DNA of 29,451 bases, taken from IMG/VR virus record IMGVR_UViG_3300010885_018185, positions 1-29,451 of that record; one strand, written 5' to 3'. The DNA comes from a virus. How positions within the stretch are numbered: position 1 is the first letter of the stretch; each line of letters starts with the position of its first letter. Position numbers and translations under genes: made by a program. Below, piece after piece: positions 11,174 through 28,448 of this stretch. The notes under the pieces are model-generated. The model was not told where the DNA came from. It did no database searches and worked only from the letters and a program-made list of their open reading frames with translations.

Positions 11174-11201
11174 CCCGCTTGTTTCTACAGGCGGGTTTTT
11201 T
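11174..11201 (+). terminator. Rho-independent terminator, pointing rightwards
   Basis: The arms CCCGCTTG (11174-11181) and CAGGCGGG (11188-11195) form an 8-bp stem with one G-T pair and a 6-base loop. A run of six T follows on the plus strand. All genes here run on the minus strand, where there is no U-tract after the stem. It would therefore stop antisense transcription entering the glycosyltransferase cassette, not the cassette itself. It touches the stop codon of the 11200-12138 gene. Confidence 0.65.
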
Positions 11202-12138
11202 ATTTACAGATAAAATCTTCTAATTCCTTAAACTTAGGTTTTAACTGATCTGCCCGCTTTAATCCCTTTTTGCTCCATTTTTTATAATAGACATCATCCG
11301 TCATTAACTTATTTATTTCAGATGCCCATTTTTCGGTATCTTTTCTATTTATACAAATACCCGCATCCCCTACGTTTTCAAGTAATCCCGCTGTAGGATT
11401 ATATATTACAGGGATGCCGTTTATCATCCCTTCACCTGCAACCATGCCCCAAGATTCGTAATGGCTTGGCACTAATAACACCTTTGTCACTTTATATATT
11501 TCACGAATATCTGGCGTATTTGGTAATATTTTAACGTTTGGCAGATTTTCAATATGCTGGCCATCATAACTACCCCTTACCCCTAAAAATTGAAATTGTG
11601 GCAACCTTTTTGCCATTGCATAAAAATATCTTGAGCCCTTGTTTTGGTTTAAATTAATCAAAGTAATATATTTCCTTTCCTTATCATCTGTTTTGACCCA
11701 TTCATCAATCGGAGGTGGAAAAACAATAGAAGGCCATTTATAGCCCAATGATAATTTGCACCATTCAGAATTATAAATAACATTAACAGGAATAGGCGAA
11801 TCTTTTACACTTGGGTAGGATGTATCGTTATGTACTATATGAACAAATGGTTTATTATACTTTTGGCAAGTATGGGTAGTCCATTTATTGTAATCTAAAT
11901 GTGAAATAACGACATCCGCCCATGTAAATAGTTTATCTATAATGTATTCATCTGGGGGGAATACATCTACCCCCTCATATGTGTACATCTCAGTAATTTT
12001 ATACTGATTAGCTTGATGAAGCAATATTTTAACTTCATGGCCTTGACTTATTAAATGCCTATTAATATTGCGTGCCATTGCCTCCGCCCCACTTCCATGT
12101 TTTGGGAAGTACAAATGTATAGACCATAGAATTTTCAT
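11200..12138 (-). CDS. GT4-family glycosyltransferase
   Basis: The start is the ATG at 12138, overlapping the previous stop (ATGA); the frame is open further up but that part overlaps the GT11 gene. The 312-aa product begins MKILWSIHLYFPKHGSGAEA, with the N-terminal Rossmann glycine-rich loop (GSGAEAMARNINRHL), and DVVISHLDYNKW. The C-terminal domain has the GT4 acceptor/donor motif with E-x7-E, SHYESWGMVAGEGMINGIP, then VIYNPTAGLLENVGDAG. It is a retaining GT-B enzyme that would transfer a sugar from a nucleotide-sugar. No signal peptide. It is last in a four-gene cassette between capsid and connector genes. Sugar and acceptor are unknown. Confidence 0.9.
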   Translation of the reverse strand: MKILWSIHLYFPKHGSGAEAMARNINRHLISQGHEVKILLHQANQYKITEMYTYEGVDVFPPDEYIIDKLFTWADVVISHLDYNKWTTHTCQKYNKPFVHIVHNDTSYPSVKDSPIPVNVIYNSEWCKLSLGYKWPSIVFPPPIDEWVKTDDKERKYITLINLNQNKGSRYFYAMAKRLPQFQFLGVRGSYDGQHIENLPNVKILPNTPDIREIYKVTKVLLVPSHYESWGMVAGEGMINGIPVIYNPTAGLLENVGDAGICINRKDTEKWASEINKLMTDDVYYKKWSKKGLKRADQLKPKFKELEDFICK

Positions 12139-12890
12139 ATAACTATCCAATTTTGGTGATAAATGTCTTTTGCTGAAATATCTACATGAGGCCCAAACCA
12201 TTTAGATGGGGCAATTACTTTCTTATCGGGATGATCTGCTAATATAGCCGCCATTGCCGAAAAGCTACTATTTGCTATTATAAAATGTTTGCATCGTTTC
12301 ATTAGCCTAAAATCGTCTATGTAATTACCAGATAAGTATAAAGCCTCAATCCCTACCCTCTTTTTTGCAAACTCTAAATCATCTGAAAAAACGATATACT
12401 GTGTATCTGCCGGCATTAATTTAAATGCCTCTTTGTAATATTCCTCTGAGCATCTGGGATGATAAGCATTTGGATCGTCTAAATAATCACCCGCCCTAAC
12501 ATGAATAGCACAAAAGTTATTTTGCTTAGGCTCATTTACCATAGTAAAATAATGCCTTATTTCATCCATGCAATGTTCAAAGAATTTAGGGCTTTGTAGA
12601 TGGGCATCTATATTCCAATCACAATTTGACAGATCGACATCTTTATATCCCCAAAAATACCCGTAACTATTTATATGTCTGCCGTCTGGCAAAATAGGTA
12701 ACTTATTTACAAAAAACCTATCCATAGTATCTGCAAAATCCCCAAACAAGGCGTTATCTCTATTCACCCATTTAGGAAAGGCAAATGATGTATTATTACG
12801 CTTTGCAATACCTATAACGCCTGCAATTGTCCATAACTGATTTCCAAACCTACCTAACCCGCCGTTTCCTATGCTTAAAGCCGTTACCAT
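12135..12890 (-). CDS. GT11-family glycosyltransferase (alpha-1,2-fucosyltransferase-like)
   Basis: The product is 251 aa. It has the motifs of GT11 in order: GGLGRFGNQLW near residue 10 (the G-R-GNQ-f motif), FCAIHVRAGDY near 125 (HxR-GDY, GDP-fucose binding), YIVFSDDLEFAK near 163, then LMKRCKHFIIANSSFSAMAA, and VIAPSKWFG near the end. Known members add L-fucose in alpha-1,2 linkage to galactose using GDP-fucose. The usual SSFSWW is SSFSAM here, so substrate may differ. The sequence is a bit short for the family, about 270-300 aa. It overlaps both neighbours by a few bases. Confidence 0.88.
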   Translation of the reverse strand: MVTALSIGNGGLGRFGNQLWTIAGVIGIAKRNNTSFAFPKWVNRDNALFGDFADTMDRFFVNKLPILPDGRHINSYGYFWGYKDVDLSNCDWNIDAHLQSPKFFEHCMDEIRHYFTMVNEPKQNNFCAIHVRAGDYLDDPNAYHPRCSEEYYKEAFKLMPADTQYIVFSDDLEFAKKRVGIEALYLSGNYIDDFRLMKRCKHFIIANSSFSAMAAILADHPDKKVIAPSKWFGPHVDISAKDIYHQNWIVI

Positions 12891-13618
12891 TCGTTATTAC
12901 GTTTTCTATGATGATTAAATATTACAGGGTAATTATCTTCAGCAAATTGCGGATGCTTATCATAAATAAATTGACCGCCGTTATAATGCGCCGCCCACCA
13001 ATGTAATTTAATTGCGTATTTATAAGCCAAACAGGTTAAGATAGCCTGATCATGCCTATGCTCTATAAAATGTAAATAATTTTGTGTATTGCTTTGACTG
13101 TCATCTATAAACCCGTTTACTTGGCATAATTTAAGCCATTCCCTAACAAACATTCTTGCCTGTAAAGTGTTTTTAATTATAATAACAGATGCCTGCACTT
13201 GCCTTGCCTCCATGTCGTACGAAAGTTCCCAATTCGGTAAAATAAAATCCATTACATCCATTTTACACCAATCTAAATGCCTGTAGTTATTACCGAATAG
13301 CCATACATCAGAATCCATCCGCTCTATTATCAGTTTTAGACTATTTACAAACTCCACCCCCGCATCGCTATAAACAAATATGTCATTTTCAGGTAGTTCG
13401 CTTAATTTCCTTTCTATAATGTACGGCTTCCATAGCCAATAACCCGCACCCCTTTCTTTGCTTAACACATCATGATTCATCCGTTTAAATTCCTCAGAAT
13501 AGCATGATTGATTATACATAATAGATATGTCCGCCCCGTTATTTAACGCACTATTGCGGCATACAATTCCGCTTTGTGACATATTTTGGTCGCTAAATGT
13601 GATATGGGTAATATTCAT
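12884..13618 (-). CDS. Putative glycosyltransferase of an unclassified family
   Basis: The product is 244 aa. Features: GAGYWLWKPYIIERKLSELP, NDIFVYSDAGVEFVNS (a DxG/SDAG acidic motif after a beta strand), WCKMDVMDFI, then HRHDQAILTCLAYKYAIKLH and the end VIFNHHRKRNNEW. The 'GYWxWKPYII' plus 'DIxxYxDAGCE' and 'HRHDQaILt' pattern is one I recall from GT-A-like hypothetical proteins in surface-polysaccharide clusters. It probably has a GT-A fold with the acidic motif binding the nucleotide sugar metal. The position between a GT25-like gene and a GT11 gene supports this. Activity is not shown by the sequence. Confidence 0.68.
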   Translation of the reverse strand: MNITHITFSDQNMSQSGIVCRNSALNNGADISIMYNQSCYSEEFKRMNHDVLSKERGAGYWLWKPYIIERKLSELPENDIFVYSDAGVEFVNSLKLIIERMDSDVWLFGNNYRHLDWCKMDVMDFILPNWELSYDMEARQVQASVIIIKNTLQARMFVREWLKLCQVNGFIDDSQSNTQNYLHFIEHRHDQAILTCLAYKYAIKLHWWAAHYNGGQFIYDKHPQFAEDNYPVIFNHHRKRNNEW

Positions 13619-14175
13619 ATTAACTTACTTTGTGTATGCAATATCCCGTAATCGGTATCCGTCTGCCATAAATCACTATACCCCGCCCTTTGAGTAGTAA
13701 TGAAAGGCTTACAAATATAACACTTTAATTCAGGCTGTATTTTGCGCAAAAGATAATCATCATAAATCCCGTCTTTATATGGATCGTATCTATCGTAAAT
13801 ATACTGTGCCGCCTTTTCGGTATAAATAACAGAATGTGTCGTGTGCGTTTGTTTACACCTCCACCAATGATCTTGAATATGTTTTAATGGGGCTAATACG
13901 TGACCCGATAAATACAATATATCGTAATCATCTGGGGCTGTTTCTAATACGTATTTAAGCATATTATTTACAAACAATACATCATCTTCAAATACCAATG
14001 TATTTTCTGTTATTGATTTTAAAATAGCCTTTTGCGATAAATTAAAAGATGTAAAACGATCTTCATGCTTAATCGCTAAAAATCTATCTACTTCTAAATT
14101 CTGTTCTTTAAATTGCTTTTGTGCAAGTTCCCATCTATCGTTTCGGCTTGCAAGGCTTAGGCAAATGGCTTTCAT
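13615..14175 (-). CDS. GT25-like glycosyltransferase
   Basis: The product is 186 aa. It starts MKAICLSLASRNDRWELAQKQF, the 'vinL-~R-dR' start of GT25 (LPS biosynthesis / galactosyltransferase) enzymes. LVFEDDVLFVNN near residue 60 carries the ED(D) motif for the metal and sugar donor. DILYLSGH, then THSVIYTEKAAQYIYDRYDP and DDYLLRKIQ, then CYICKPFITTQRAGYSDLW near residue 160 complete the family order. It leads the cassette. A terminator ends capsid transcription just before it, and a TATATTTG box lies four bases from its ATG. Confidence 0.85.
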   Translation of the reverse strand: MKAICLSLASRNDRWELAQKQFKEQNLEVDRFLAIKHEDRFTSFNLSQKAILKSITENTLVFEDDVLFVNNMLKYVLETAPDDYDILYLSGHVLAPLKHIQDHWWRCKQTHTTHSVIYTEKAAQYIYDRYDPYKDGIYDDYLLRKIQPELKCYICKPFITTQRAGYSDLWQTDTDYGILHTQSKLI

Positions 14176-20216: not shown

Positions 20217-21404
20217 TTAGTTCGTTGTTTTATAAGGCTTTCCGTTTCTTTTGATTTGCAGCGTTGGATCAAGTTTAAGCATCCTGTCTATAATGACCTG
20301 ACAGTATTTAGGATCGAGTTCCATACCGTAACACTTGCGTTTCAGTTGGTGAGAAGCGACCATTGTTGATCCGCTGCCTGTAAATAAATCCACAACTATT
20401 TGATTTATCTTACTGCTATTTTTAATTGCTCTTTCTGGTAACTCTACTGGTTTTTGTGTAGGATGGTAATCATTTTTATTTTCCTTTTTAAGCTCCCATA
20501 CAGTCTTTTCATCAGTTGGCCCAAACCATTGCGGCGCATGACCATCTTTAAAAGCATATATACAAGGTTCGTAGTTTGGAATGTATTGGCTCATAAATGC
20601 CCCTAATCCACTTTTAATCTTGTACCAACATATAACTGCCCTAACCTTTAATGATAACTGATCAAATGATTTAAATGTTTCAACAGCCTTTCCATTTGCA
20701 TACCAGATATAAAATGCTGCGTGTTCCCATGAAAATAATTCGGCATTTACTAAAGAATCGTAGAAAAGGTCTGTAAGATTATCGCCTTCCAATGTATCAT
20801 TCTCAATACCTTTCCGCTTCTTTTTATTATGACCTCCTTCATAACTTACACCATAAGGAGGATCAGTAAATACCATATCCGCCTTTTGTCCGTTCATTAA
20901 CTTTGCGACCTGATCGCTATCCGTACTATCCCCACAAAGCAAACGATGCTCACCTATCTCGAACAAGTCACCGAGCACTATATCTGTTTCAATTCCACCT
21001 TCAGGAGCTTCATAATCATCTTCTTCTGCTTCAAGTACTTCCGCTTTAAAGTCAGGTACATCCAACCCCCATTCATTAAGCTTTTCAGCATCCCATTCGT
21101 TGGCAAGCATATCCCAATCCCACTCACCGTAACCTACGTTATCTTTAATCGTGAAAGCTCTTTGCTTCTCCTCTGACCAATCGACTATCTCGCATGGTAT
21201 CTCTTTCCAGCCTAACTCCTTTGCAGCCTTTAGTCGCATATTGCCACCGAGAACGATCATGTCTTTATTTACTACAACAGGTCGCACATTACAGAAGTCA
21301 GGGTCTTCCTCAAGTGACTTAACAAGCTTGTAAAATTTGTCATCCTTAATCAATCTTGGGTTATTAGGATTGCTTTTGATTTGGTTTATTTTTATTAAAG
21401 CCAT
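20217..21404 (-). CDS. ParB/sulfiredoxin-like domain fused to DNA N6/N4 methyltransferase
   Basis: The product is 395 aa. Residues 1-105 are a ParB-like N-terminal fold: PRLIKDDKFYKLVKSLEEDP, VVVNKDMIVLGGNMRLKAA (the 'GG-~R~~A' nucleotide site), CEIVDWSEEKQRAFTIKDN. Residues 140-395 are a methylase: IGEHRLLCGDSTD, ADMVFTDPPYGVSYEG (motif IV, DPPY), then DYHPTQKPVELPERAI, then VVDLFTGSGSTMVA (motif I). The order IV then I is that of the beta class. DPPY suggests adenine N6 methylation. This fusion is common in phages and may protect phage DNA from restriction or mark it for packaging. It sits just before the terminase genes. Confidence 0.9.
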   Translation of the reverse strand: MALIKINQIKSNPNNPRLIKDDKFYKLVKSLEEDPDFCNVRPVVVNKDMIVLGGNMRLKAAKELGWKEIPCEIVDWSEEKQRAFTIKDNVGYGEWDWDMLANEWDAEKLNEWGLDVPDFKAEVLEAEEDDYEAPEGGIETDIVLGDLFEIGEHRLLCGDSTDSDQVAKLMNGQKADMVFTDPPYGVSYEGGHNKKKRKGIENDTLEGDNLTDLFYDSLVNAELFSWEHAAFYIWYANGKAVETFKSFDQLSLKVRAVICWYKIKSGLGAFMSQYIPNYEPCIYAFKDGHAPQWFGPTDEKTVWELKKENKNDYHPTQKPVELPERAIKNSSKINQIVVDLFTGSGSTMVASHQLKRKCYGMELDPKYCQVIIDRMLKLDPTLQIKRNGKPYKTTN

Positions 21405-25646: not shown

Positions 25647-25937
25647 ATGACACGAACACAGGCACTTGCCACACACCTTTTATCAGGTAAACCAGTAAGC
25701 ATTAAAACGGCTTACAAAGATTTTGGTATCAGTAACATAAGCAGGGAAGTTGCAAGATTAATAGAACGACCTTTCGGTTTATACCTTACCAGAACAAAAT
25801 TAGAAGGTAAAACAAAGTACGGTACTTATTGCTGTTGGTTTGAATACCGATTAATGAACACAAAGCTAAATTCTGCCGGTATAAAAAAGCTAAAAAAACA
25901 TCTACAGGAAAGCGTAAAAAAGCAAAAAGTTTCGTAA
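25647..25937 (+). CDS. Small DNA-binding (HTH) protein
   Basis: The product is 96 aa. Residues 1-70 read LSGKPVSIKTAYKDFGISNI then SREVARLIERPFGLYLTRTK, a winged-helix-like pattern ('GKpiS---A---FGi--~~rei~~LR'). The end is basic. It could be a regulator or a small replication protein. It closes the first rightward run before the terminator-like structure at 25947-26031. Confidence 0.68.
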   Translation: MTRTQALATHLLSGKPVSIKTAYKDFGISNISREVARLIERPFGLYLTRTKLEGKTKYGTYCCWFEYRLMNTKLNSAGIKKLKKHLQESVKKQKVS

Positions 25938-25946
25938 TTTAGCAAC

Positions 25947-26031
25947 TGATGAGTAACGGCATCAATTTTAACTTTTTAGCCCCGAAGGAATGGTCGCGCC
26001 CGTTACCGCACTATTCCCGAAGGGCTTTTTT
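25947..26031 (+). ncRNA. Structured leader: hairpin plus terminator with complementary loops
   Basis: Hairpin 1: TGATG (25947-25951) and CATCA (25960-25964) close the loop AGTAACGG. Hairpin 2: AGCCC (25978-25982) pairs with GGGCT (26022-26026), a symmetric CGAA/CGAA internal loop follows (25983-25986 and 26018-26021), then GGAAT (25987-25991) pairs with ATTCC (26013-26017). Its large loop contains CCGTTAC (26000-26006), exactly complementary to GTAACGG (25953-25959) in loop 1. T's run from 26026 to 26031, giving a terminator that ends six bases before the start codon at 26038. It may be a terminator-based control element for the replication genes. No known RNA family is recognised. Confidence 0.6.
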
Positions 26032-26037
26032 AATTTT

Positions 26038-26649
26038 ATGACCAGAAAAGCATTTAATTTTTACAGATCTTATTATGATGTTTTTTTAATGTTAGAATCA
26101 GATACTGACAAAGTACAATTTATAACGGCTTTGCTAAAAAAACAGTTTGAAAATATAGATACGGACAATTTGTCTCCAATGGCTTTATTTGCTTACAAGT
26201 CACAGGAACACAATATAAACTCACAAATAGAAGGTTATTTAAGTAAAAATAAATTAGGGGGTAGGCAAGGGGGTTCGGTAGGGGGTTCGGTAGGGGGTTC
26301 GGTAGGGGGTTCGGTAAAGGGTAGGCAAGGGGCTTCGGTACAAGAGGAAGAGAAAGAGAAAGGGGAAGAGAAAGGGAAAGAGGAAGAAGAAGAGAAAGTA
26401 AAAGAGGAATATAAAGAGGAAGGTTTATTTTTAGAAAATTGTAAGGAAATAGCTTTAAAGGATGAAAAATGGGTTAGAATAGCTAAAACAAACTCAGAAG
26501 AGTTAGAAGCATTTAACGACCATTGCATCCTAATAGGATTAAGTAAGAAAACGCCAATAGATTATAAAAGACATTTTGTAAACTGGAAAAAACAAAATCC
26601 TCAAATATTGGTTGATATTAACAGAAAAAATAGAGATGATTCATGGTAA
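26038..26649 (+). CDS. DUF6291-like phage replication initiation protein
   Basis: The start at 26038 (MTRKAFNFYRSYYDVFLMLE) fits the family start; an ATG at 25990 would place the terminator stem in the coding frame. The 203-aa product has an N-terminal helical domain of the DUF6291 pattern ('KSF-~Y-sYYdi~~~L---~--~fi~al~~--f') up to about residue 70. A linker (72-100) is built of GGSV repeats and is followed by a Glu/Lys-rich stretch. The C-terminal part ends KKTPIDYKRHFVNWKKQNPQ. Such proteins occur beside phage and plasmid helicases and probably load the helicase encoded just after (seven-base overlap). The function is inferred. Confidence 0.75.
   Translation: MTRKAFNFYRSYYDVFLMLESDTDKVQFITALLKKQFENIDTDNLSPMALFAYKSQEHNINSQIEGYLSKNKLGGRQGGSVGGSVGGSVGGSVKGRQGASVQEEEKEKGEEKGKEEEEEKVKEEYKEEGLFLENCKEIALKDEKWVRIAKTNSEELEAFNDHCILIGLSKKTPIDYKRHFVNWKKQNPQILVDINRKNRDDSW
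26257..26340 (+). repeat. G-rich tandem repeats, possible G-quadruplex
   Basis: Four perfect copies of a 12-base unit, GGGGGTTCGGTA, lie at 26269-26316. They are flanked by two copies of a unit starting GGGTAGGCAAGGGG. Seven runs of three to five G occur on the coding strand, with gaps of about seven bases. They encode the GGSV repeats of the replication protein. The tract could fold into a G-quadruplex in mRNA or ssDNA, and the repeat number could vary. Confidence 0.85.
26342..26398 (+). other. 57-base all-purine tract
   Basis: Every base from 26342 to 26398 is A or G on the plus strand. It encodes the Glu/Lys-rich linker. Long polypurine runs can form triplex DNA and stall polymerases. It lies directly after the G-rich repeats. 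Confidence 0.8.
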
Positions 26650-28448
26650 CAGCATATAGAAATATTTGGGCAAAAGAGGCAAAAGATGCACACTACATTA
26701 CAGTAGATCAGGCATTAGCAAGAATAAAGAATGGTAAGTCAAAACAGGCTGTAGAAGAGATAAGACTACAACTTGACAAAGAGCGTAAAAATAGCCTTAA
26801 AAACAATTTACCATGCATCTGTTTTTCAGGTAAGTTTACAAAAAGAGAGGATAAGGCTATAATTCAGCATTCAGGATTTATAGTGTTAGATTTTGACGAA
26901 TTAAAGGATGTAAGGGAAAAACAGACCGAAATTATAAATTTACCATACATTTATGCCTGTTGGCTTTCACCATCTGGCAATGGATTAAAGGCATTAGTTA
27001 AGATAGCAGATGCCACAAAGCATAGGGAACATTTTACCGCTTTACAGGAAATAATGCCCGAAATTGACCCATCTGGCAAAAATGAAAGCAGGGTATGTTA
27101 TGAAAGCTACGATCCTGACATTTACATTAATGTTAATGCCGTACCGTTTACTAAAACTCTTATACATGACAAAATTAAGGCTCAGGATATAGTAAGTGAT
27201 AAATCTGAGGTATATCGTAAAATACTTACATGGCTTAGTAATAAAGGGGATGCTTTTCGTACCGGCGAAAGAAATACATTTATTTTTAAATTAGCCTCAG
27301 CCTGTTGCAGATTTGGTATAAATCAATCTGAGACCGAATATTACATTAATAACGATTTTGTTCACAATGATTCAAATTTTGCAAAGTACGAATCAGATAG
27401 GGCCATAAAATCCGCTTATAGATCTAATAACTTTAATACCGCTGTATTTGATCGTGATATACTTATAGATATAAAAACTAAAAAAGAAATACAAATAGAC
27501 CCTGCCATCTATGATCTTACAATAAGGCCAAAAGATGTTATATACGGCGAAGATGTCAAAGAAAATGCCTTAGAATTGTTTAGAAATGGATTTGCTAAAT
27601 TAAAAGGCATTGATTGTGAATTGGATGAATATTTTAAATTTAAACATGGGGAAATTACGTGTTTAACAGGCATAGGCAATTACGGGAAAAGTAGCTTTCT
27701 CATGTGGTATATTCTTATAAGAGCAATAAAATACGGCGAAAAATACGCCTTATTTTCTCCTGAAAATAACCCTGCGGAAGAGTTTTACCATGATTTAACC
27801 GAAATTTACATAGGGCAACCATGCATAAAACCATACGTTAATGAGATGAAATACGAACAGGCATACGATTTTATCAGTAAACATATTTTTTATGTCTACC
27901 CAAAAGAATTAGCACCTACCCCAGAATATATAAAAGAAAGATTTTTAGAATTGATAATAAAAGAAAAGGTGATGGGATGTATAATAGATCCATTTAATCA
28001 ATTGTCAAATGATTACCTTAGCGCAGGCGGTAGATCAGATAAGTATTTAGAAACATTTTTATCTGATTGTAGCCGTTTTGCTCAGATAAACAATATTTAT
28101 TTTATTATTGTTGCACATCCTCATAAAATGAGAAAAGAGCCGGACGGTAACTATCCATGCCCAGATGTATTTGATTTGGCAGACGGGGCAATGTGGAACA
28201 ATAAAATGGATAATATTATAGTTTACCATAGGCCTAACCACCAAAAAGACCCCAGCAGTCCTATTTGTACTTTTCACTCAAAAAAGATTAGAAGGCAAAA
28301 GCAAGTTGGTAAAAAGGGTGAATTAGAATTTGAATATAACAGAAAAGAAAGACGGTATTATTTTAACGGTCGGGATGTTTTGGCTTATTTATTGGCAGAA
28401 ATAACAAAACAAACTACATTTGTTTATGATGATGAAGCCCCATTTTAA
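26643..28448 (+). CDS. Primase-helicase-like fusion: VirE_N/BT4734 domain plus RecA-type helicase
   Basis: The product is 601 aa. Residues about 40-185 form a VirE_N/BT4734-like domain (HSGFIVLDFDELKDVREKQ, then CWLSPSGNGLKALVKIA), a family of prim-pol-like fold often joined to helicases in Bacteroidota. Residues 195-290 are helical. The RecA core starts near 330: GEITCLTGIGNYGKSSFLMW (Walker A), YALFSPENNP, GCIIDPFNQLSNDY (Walker B), NIYFIIVAHPHKMRKE (the 'H' sensor), then DGAMWNNKMDNIIVYHR. It is a DnaB/T7 gp4/Twinkle-like helicase unit. The last residues are YDDEAPF, like an SSB tip. It would drive the phage replication fork with the preceding gene. Confidence 0.85.
   Translation: MVTAYRNIWAKEAKDAHYITVDQALARIKNGKSKQAVEEIRLQLDKERKNSLKNNLPCICFSGKFTKREDKAIIQHSGFIVLDFDELKDVREKQTEIINLPYIYACWLSPSGNGLKALVKIADATKHREHFTALQEIMPEIDPSGKNESRVCYESYDPDIYINVNAVPFTKTLIHDKIKAQDIVSDKSEVYRKILTWLSNKGDAFRTGERNTFIFKLASACCRFGINQSETEYYINNDFVHNDSNFAKYESDRAIKSAYRSNNFNTAVFDRDILIDIKTKKEIQIDPAIYDLTIRPKDVIYGEDVKENALELFRNGFAKLKGIDCELDEYFKFKHGEITCLTGIGNYGKSSFLMWYILIRAIKYGEKYALFSPENNPAEEFYHDLTEIYIGQPCIKPYVNEMKYEQAYDFISKHIFYVYPKELAPTPEYIKERFLELIIKEKVMGCIIDPFNQLSNDYLSAGGRSDKYLETFLSDCSRFAQINNIYFIIVAHPHKMRKEPDGNYPCPDVFDLADGAMWNNKMDNIIVYHRPNHQKDPSSPICTFHSKKIRRQKQVGKKGELEFEYNRKERRYYFNGRDVLAYLLAEITKQTTFVYDDEAPF

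Follow-up and report, generated by a model that had tools for sequence, protein, structure and literature searches.

To our knowledge, the control of replication genes in phages of the Bacteroidota has been little described. In an uncultivated virus represented by IMG/VR record IMGVR_UViG_3300010885_018185 (positions 1 to 29,451, the whole stretch of 29,451 bases being referred to here as the window), two hairpins with perfectly complementary loops lie just ahead of the replication genes. This locus raises the questions of whether the two loops pair in a functional RNA and, if so, what such pairing would do for the genes behind them. The present analysis indicates that the feature is real and far larger than first described in the window: it represents an RNA family with strong covariation, missing from both Rfam and the literature searched, that is fixed before the replication module while the genes behind it have been exchanged. 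The leader is present in many viruses of Bacteroidota bacteria, just before DNA-replication genes, and it probably sets the amount of replication protein made.

Two hairpins ahead of a replication module

The minus strand of the window encodes the head genes, and the plus strand carries a replication/recombination set in the order ERF, SSB, DnaA-C-like protein, methyltransferase, the element, a replication-module protein, and a primase/helicase. The element itself is 85 nt long (25947-26031). It is preceded by a gene for a 96-aa protein (25647..25937, +) that had no match in Pfam and PHROG searches, and a sequence resembling this gene also precedes the element in the related loci L002-L008. 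The initial annotation placed the element before a replication gene, and the neighboring genes bear this out: the start codon behind it belongs to a replication-module protein of the RKAFNFYRSY type (26038..26649, +), which shows a weak DUF7833 match at its C-terminus, and this gene is followed by a BT4734/PriCT primase/helicase (26643..28448, +; BT4734-like_N and PriCT_1 domains, PHROG primase/helicase). Other first genes at the same place encode DUF6291 proteins. Within the first replication gene lies a 12-bp tandem repeat, AGGGGGTTCGGT, in 4.1 perfect copies (26268..26316, +), and the first replication gene of relatives encodes similar GG-rich repeats at this site; the repeats are iteron-like and mark a candidate replication origin. 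Elsewhere in the window, a run of glycosyltransferase-type genes (11200-14175, −), comprising GT4, a GT11 fucosyltransferase-like gene, one gene without a Pfam match, and a GT25-like gene, is located between phage structural genes, and a fusion of ParB_N to an N6/N4 DNA methylase (20217-21404, −) adjoins the terminase region.

The unconstrained minimum free energy (MFE) fold of the 85 nt consists of exactly two hairpins (−25.9 kcal/mol, z −2.69). Hairpin 1 (25947..25964, +) has the stem TGATG (25947-25951)/CATCA (25960-25964) and an 8-nt loop in which a single A precedes the segment GTAACGG (X; 25953..25959, +). A single-stranded linker of 13 nt (25965..25977, +), unpaired in both the MFE and the consensus folds, leads to the terminator-like hairpin 2 (25978..26026, +). 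Its lower stem, AGCCC (25978-25982)/GGGCT (26022-26026), is topped by a symmetric CGAA/CGAA internal loop, possibly a tandem G.A arrangement, and then by an upper stem of GGAATGGT/ACTATTCC and GCG/CGC, which closes an apical loop of C followed by CCGTTAC (X′; 26000..26006, +). All seven bases of X′ are complementary to X. A T-run forming the U-tract (26026..26031, +) ends six bases before the ATG at 26038. Two stem-loops 13 bases apart, complementary 7-base loops, a CGAA/CGAA internal loop, and a T-run six bases from the start codon had all been described for this locus, and each was recovered here. Taken alone, a 7-nt match of this kind is not significant, because 20 dinucleotide shuffles of the whole window gave 42 loop–loop complementarities of at least 7 nt within 60 nt, i.e., about 2 such loop pairs are expected by chance per 29-kb strand. 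The significance of the complementarity therefore comes from comparative evidence and not from the single sequence.

Covariation of the loop–loop helix

Two sets of relatives were compared. To assemble leaders of the window type, relatives of the downstream protein were fetched and further leaders were added by means of a DNA pattern. This gave eight distinct leaders with seven different loop sequences (GTAACGG, CTACCAG, TTCGCAC, GTAGCAG, GTAGCCG, GTCGCAC, and GTAGCGC), each of which has its exact complement in hairpin 2. Every one of these loops comprises one spacer base and seven pairs. The pairing proposed for GTAACGG/CCGTTAC is kept without exception over the seven loop types: 56/56 loop–loop cells are paired (100%, MAFFT alignment), compared with 21-43% in slid registers, and the helix shows 14 double changes versus 3.8 in shuffles. 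The hairpin 1 stem, by comparison, is almost invariant among these leaders. The loops can differ sharply between close relatives, as in L004, L005, and L008, which have near-identical leaders and very different loops, and in L129 and L245, which are 91% identical elsewhere yet share only one of six variable loop positions.

The wider family points the same way. An alignment search yielded 80 viral loci carrying a relative of the downstream gene. Of 54 initiator homologs, 19 had a full element upstream according to a detector that looked for hairpin 1, a match between loops, and a second hairpin of terminator type; of 1080 shuffles, 1 did. A covariance model built from the stems alone, without the loop–loop pairing, was combined with a gene-blind DNA pattern in IMG/VR to give 56 distinct elements. 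In these, 98.9% of the loop-helix cells pair (slid registers, 24-39%), with 131 double changes versus 37.4 in shuffles. All three stems covary as well, including the lower and upper stems equivalent to those of hairpin 2 and the stem equivalent to hairpin 1, which is paired in 97.1% of cells; RNAalifold independently predicts the same stems, with a consensus fold of two hairpins only. Chance as the source of the loop pairing is ruled out by this comparison across relatives. The initial annotation had reasoned that relatives in which one loop changed without the other would speak against the pairing, and such cases are rare: just 3/56 elements are not perfectly Watson–Crick in the aligned loop helix. 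One of the three (L191) has a G-U pair, and another (L009) is merely shifted in the alignment, its loops GAGTCTCA/TGAGACTC matching perfectly. The third (L228:542-632) has the sole clear uncompensated loop mismatch, GGTCTAAC against GTTAGACG, and is possibly an intermediate between two loop types. Comparison thus identifies the leader as a kissing-loop RNA with covarying complementary hairpin loops, for which physical contact is predicted. The first relatives had also hinted at fast-evolving “barcode” loops. This idea is unsupported over the 56 elements, in which hairpin 1 and the lower stem change at least as fast as the kissing helix and 13 elements have one loop type in common. One phage (L051) carries two leaders with different loops (48-139 and 2379-2468, the second a weak model match of 23.6 bits), one before an SNF2/methylase gene and the other before an initiator gene.

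The arrangement of the loops is likewise conserved. In the wide set, the 8-nt X directly adjoins the 5′ strand of hairpin 1, with a near-invariant AUUAUA after it, while X′ abuts the 3′ strand of the hairpin 2 upper stem and is preceded by two residues of which the first is A in 56/56 elements and the second A or G in 53/56. The mirrored arrangement is seen in cultured Flavobacterium phages. For an 8-bp coaxial kissing complex, crossings of 2 nt and 6 nt would be required, as in pseudoknot geometry, and on these general stereochemical grounds the conserved loop spacers fit groove crossing in such a complex. A rough estimate for a straight coaxial stack with a full lower stem requires the linker to span ~6.1 Å per step on average, and more than 7 Å in 12/56 elements, so that bending, partial opening, or intermolecular pairing is required.

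Promoter box, terminator-like end, and gene neighborhood

The element appears to begin where its transcript would begin. The primary sigma factor of Bacteroidota, sigma-A, has TAnnTTTG as its −7 box (PMC7366714, PMC9723704), and in F. psychrophilum this box spans −12 to −5 (PMC9723704). The motif occurs 9-14 nt before the element in 51 of 62 wider elements, against a background of 0.00086 per base. The window has a box-like sequence, TAATTTAG (25935..25942, +), that is one base off the consensus and whose TAA is the stop codon of the upstream 96-aa gene; the full box, TAATTTTG, occupies the same place in L004, L005, L008, L016, and L124. With the published box position, the RNA start appears to lie at hairpin 1, the predicted +1 in the window being 25947, the first base of the stem.

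At the other end, a T-run follows the lower stem in 55/56 wider elements, and all 56 have an ORF whose start lies 13-51 nt (median, 23) beyond the stem. A GC-rich stem followed by a U-tract, the hallmark of an intrinsic terminator, is present in 55/56 elements of the wide set and in the window; hairpin 2 was not listed by a generic terminator scanner that considers only loops of 3-8. In leaders of the window type, the ATG comes ~9-12 nt after the end of the stem. Five of these eight leaders (L004, L005, L008, L016, and L124) have an interrupted T-tract; the tract is unbroken in the window and its close twin L002. Termination may therefore not be the shared function of these leaders, despite their perfect kissing pair. 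For the family at large, a decision between termination and readthrough, as first proposed for the window, is plausible and fits the architecture, with the box at hairpin 1, the U-tract, and an ORF right behind.

Placement before replication genes is nearly universal. Same-strand replication proteins follow 40/41 gene-blind elements that have 2 kb or more of downstream sequence, and they precede none of the 32 that have 2 kb or more upstream. Whereas the leader is retained, the first gene is drawn from unrelated families, including DUF6291, Lin1244_N, the BT4734 primase, DUF1376-like proteins, SNF2/methylase, NUMOD4-HNH or GIY-YIG homing endonucleases, and small ORFs. Even the window-type leaders have three different first genes behind them: the RKAFNFYRSY protein, a Lin1244_N protein in L125, and, in L124, a protein that matches DUF1376 weakly. 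The homing endonuclease genes, of the NUMOD4-HNH and GIY-YIG types, lie directly behind the leader and before the replication genes (L140:3621-4121, −; L246:6523-6885, +), and the interval from the leader to the replication initiator repeatedly contains small ORFs of ~55-90 aa (L133:6003-6179, L163, L217, L231, and L252-L258).

Cultured carriers accepted by the detector are the Flavobacterium phages Lillamyvirus/Muminvirus/Hattifnattvirus, Elemovirus, and Olleya Harreka_1. In the Cellulophaga phages phi13:2 and phi19:3, the element was read by eye, with loops CTCTCACA/TGTGAGAG; the detector did not accept them on account of a bulged hairpin 1 stem. No such leader was found near the gene in several homolog groups (e.g., L026-L037 and L043-L046), nor was an element seen upstream of the distant gene homologs in Vibrio and Nitratiruptor phages. 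The DNA pattern was absent from 395 Bacteroidota genomes, a weak negative for so exact a pattern, and a search of IMG/VR with the exact stem sequence returned no match.

Possible function and comparison with known RNAs

Comparison among relatives establishes, at the level of sequence, the predicted fold, the kissing pair, the position of the promoter box, the terminator-like end, and the placement before replication genes; regulation itself, and with it attenuation, its direction, and its signal, we infer. The explanation that best accounts for the placement, promoter box, and terminator-like end, and one that we consider reasonably probable, is a cis-acting leader, or attenuator, that serves the replication operon of the phage and is held in shape by a kissing-loop complex. 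In this model, transcription would start with the opening base of hairpin 1, after which the two loops would pair over 7-8 bp to form a kissing complex, the loop geometry being compatible with a coaxial stack. Hairpin 2 would act as an intrinsic terminator or, where the U-tract is weak, as a structure immediately ahead of the start codon. By default, a short RNA of ~85-100 nt would be produced, and the replication genes would be made solely from readthrough transcripts. The kissing complex would most likely fix the efficiency with which hairpin 2 forms, and hence the dose or timing of the replication proteins, and anything opening the complex would be expected to alter readthrough. In a more elaborate and quite unlikely version, the complex would compete mechanically with the terminator stem, and released leaders, accumulating with genome copies, would compete in trans for the loops, which would let the phage count its own genomes and tune its replication proteins.

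Several other readings start from the same features. The promoter box and terminator-like end could also delimit an independent small RNA that acts in trans or structurally, for example by self-assembly through complementary loops in the manner of phage pRNA, the replication genes being merely neighbors. Some members have a linker that is short for closure within one molecule, and the kissing geometry would suit a dimer equally well. However, the leader stays directly before the replication operon across unrelated first genes, as a free RNA gene need not, and extra copies of the loop sequences in the fetched loci (9, with ~4 expected) have no consistent place, so we regard this reading as rather unlikely. 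Control of translation, with the kissing complex holding a structure before the start codon of the first gene, like the pseudoknot-controlled rep mRNAs of plasmids, would suit the window-type leaders, with their short distance to the ATG and often interrupted U-tract, and mRNA structure is reported to tune translation initiation in Flavobacterium (PMC6847099). In the larger set, the variable distance to the ORF (13-51 nt) and a U-tract that is nearly always intact fit termination better, which makes translational control unlikely.

The iteron-like repeats ~240 bp downstream, in the first gene, and the position of nearly all elements before replication genes would also be consistent with a replication primer transcript, or with transcription activating an origin, hairpin 2 defining the 3′ end. 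The distance from element to replication gene varies, however, with other genes inserted between, and this role seems very unlikely. Finally, because some near-identical leaders (L129 and L245; L004, L005, and L008) have very different loops, it is attractive to imagine an antisense type of immunity or incompatibility, in which released leaders would pair in trans with nascent leaders bearing the same loops, as C4/CI RNAs do. The unexceptional rate of change of the kissing helix, the sharing of one loop type by 13 elements, the lack of a consistent third complementary copy, and the lack of an Rfam match all argue against immunity, which we judge highly improbable. The preferred reading, a cis-acting leader, is open to direct testing in the cultured Cellulophaga, Flavobacterium, and Olleya phages that have the leader, which also provides a small, naturally occurring unit of kissing loop and terminator in dozens of loop variants.

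The initial annotation recognized no known RNA class in the element, a view supported by Rfam 15: no family reached the gathering cut-off anywhere in the window, and none was credible at lax thresholds in the window and 15 related loci. No description of such a leader was found in the openly licensed papers searched. The covariance models of C4 antisense RNA and phi29 pRNA were among those without a match. In phi29 pRNA, the loops interlock by complementarity and vary in sequence from phage to phage (PMC5340915). The leader resembles it in this variability of complementary loops, but its consensus fold of two hairpins has no three-way junction, no packaging genes adjoin it, and a terminator-like hairpin forms its end, ahead of replication genes. 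C4 antisense RNA of phages P1 and P7 and the CI RNA of P4 are short leader RNAs of phage operons in which base pairing governs premature termination. The likeness, no more than a lead, lies in a short RNA from a phage operon leader with base pairing; here, in contrast, the pairing is between two loops of one RNA. In the rep mRNA of ColIb-P9/IncB, loop pairing before the replication initiator gene reportedly controls its expression (Asano and Mizobuchi 1998, cited in PMC10286972), and the phage leader shares this pairing between structures ahead of a replication gene. The plasmid system controls translation and needs an antisense RNA and a leader peptide, whereas the phage leader has a terminator-like end; neither an antisense RNA gene nor a leader peptide was seen here, though antisense transcription may escape a reading of the sequence alone.

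In its predicted working, the leader joins two known kinds of element, the attenuator and the kissing loop, and it is not assigned here to a named family. With intrinsic attenuators of leader RNAs it shares a promoter, a structured leader, a U-tract terminator, and a putatively regulated gene directly behind. It differs from them in that no antiterminator fold or ligand pocket was identified for the leader and in that its conserved feature is the pairing of the hairpin 1 loop with the apical loop of the terminator itself.
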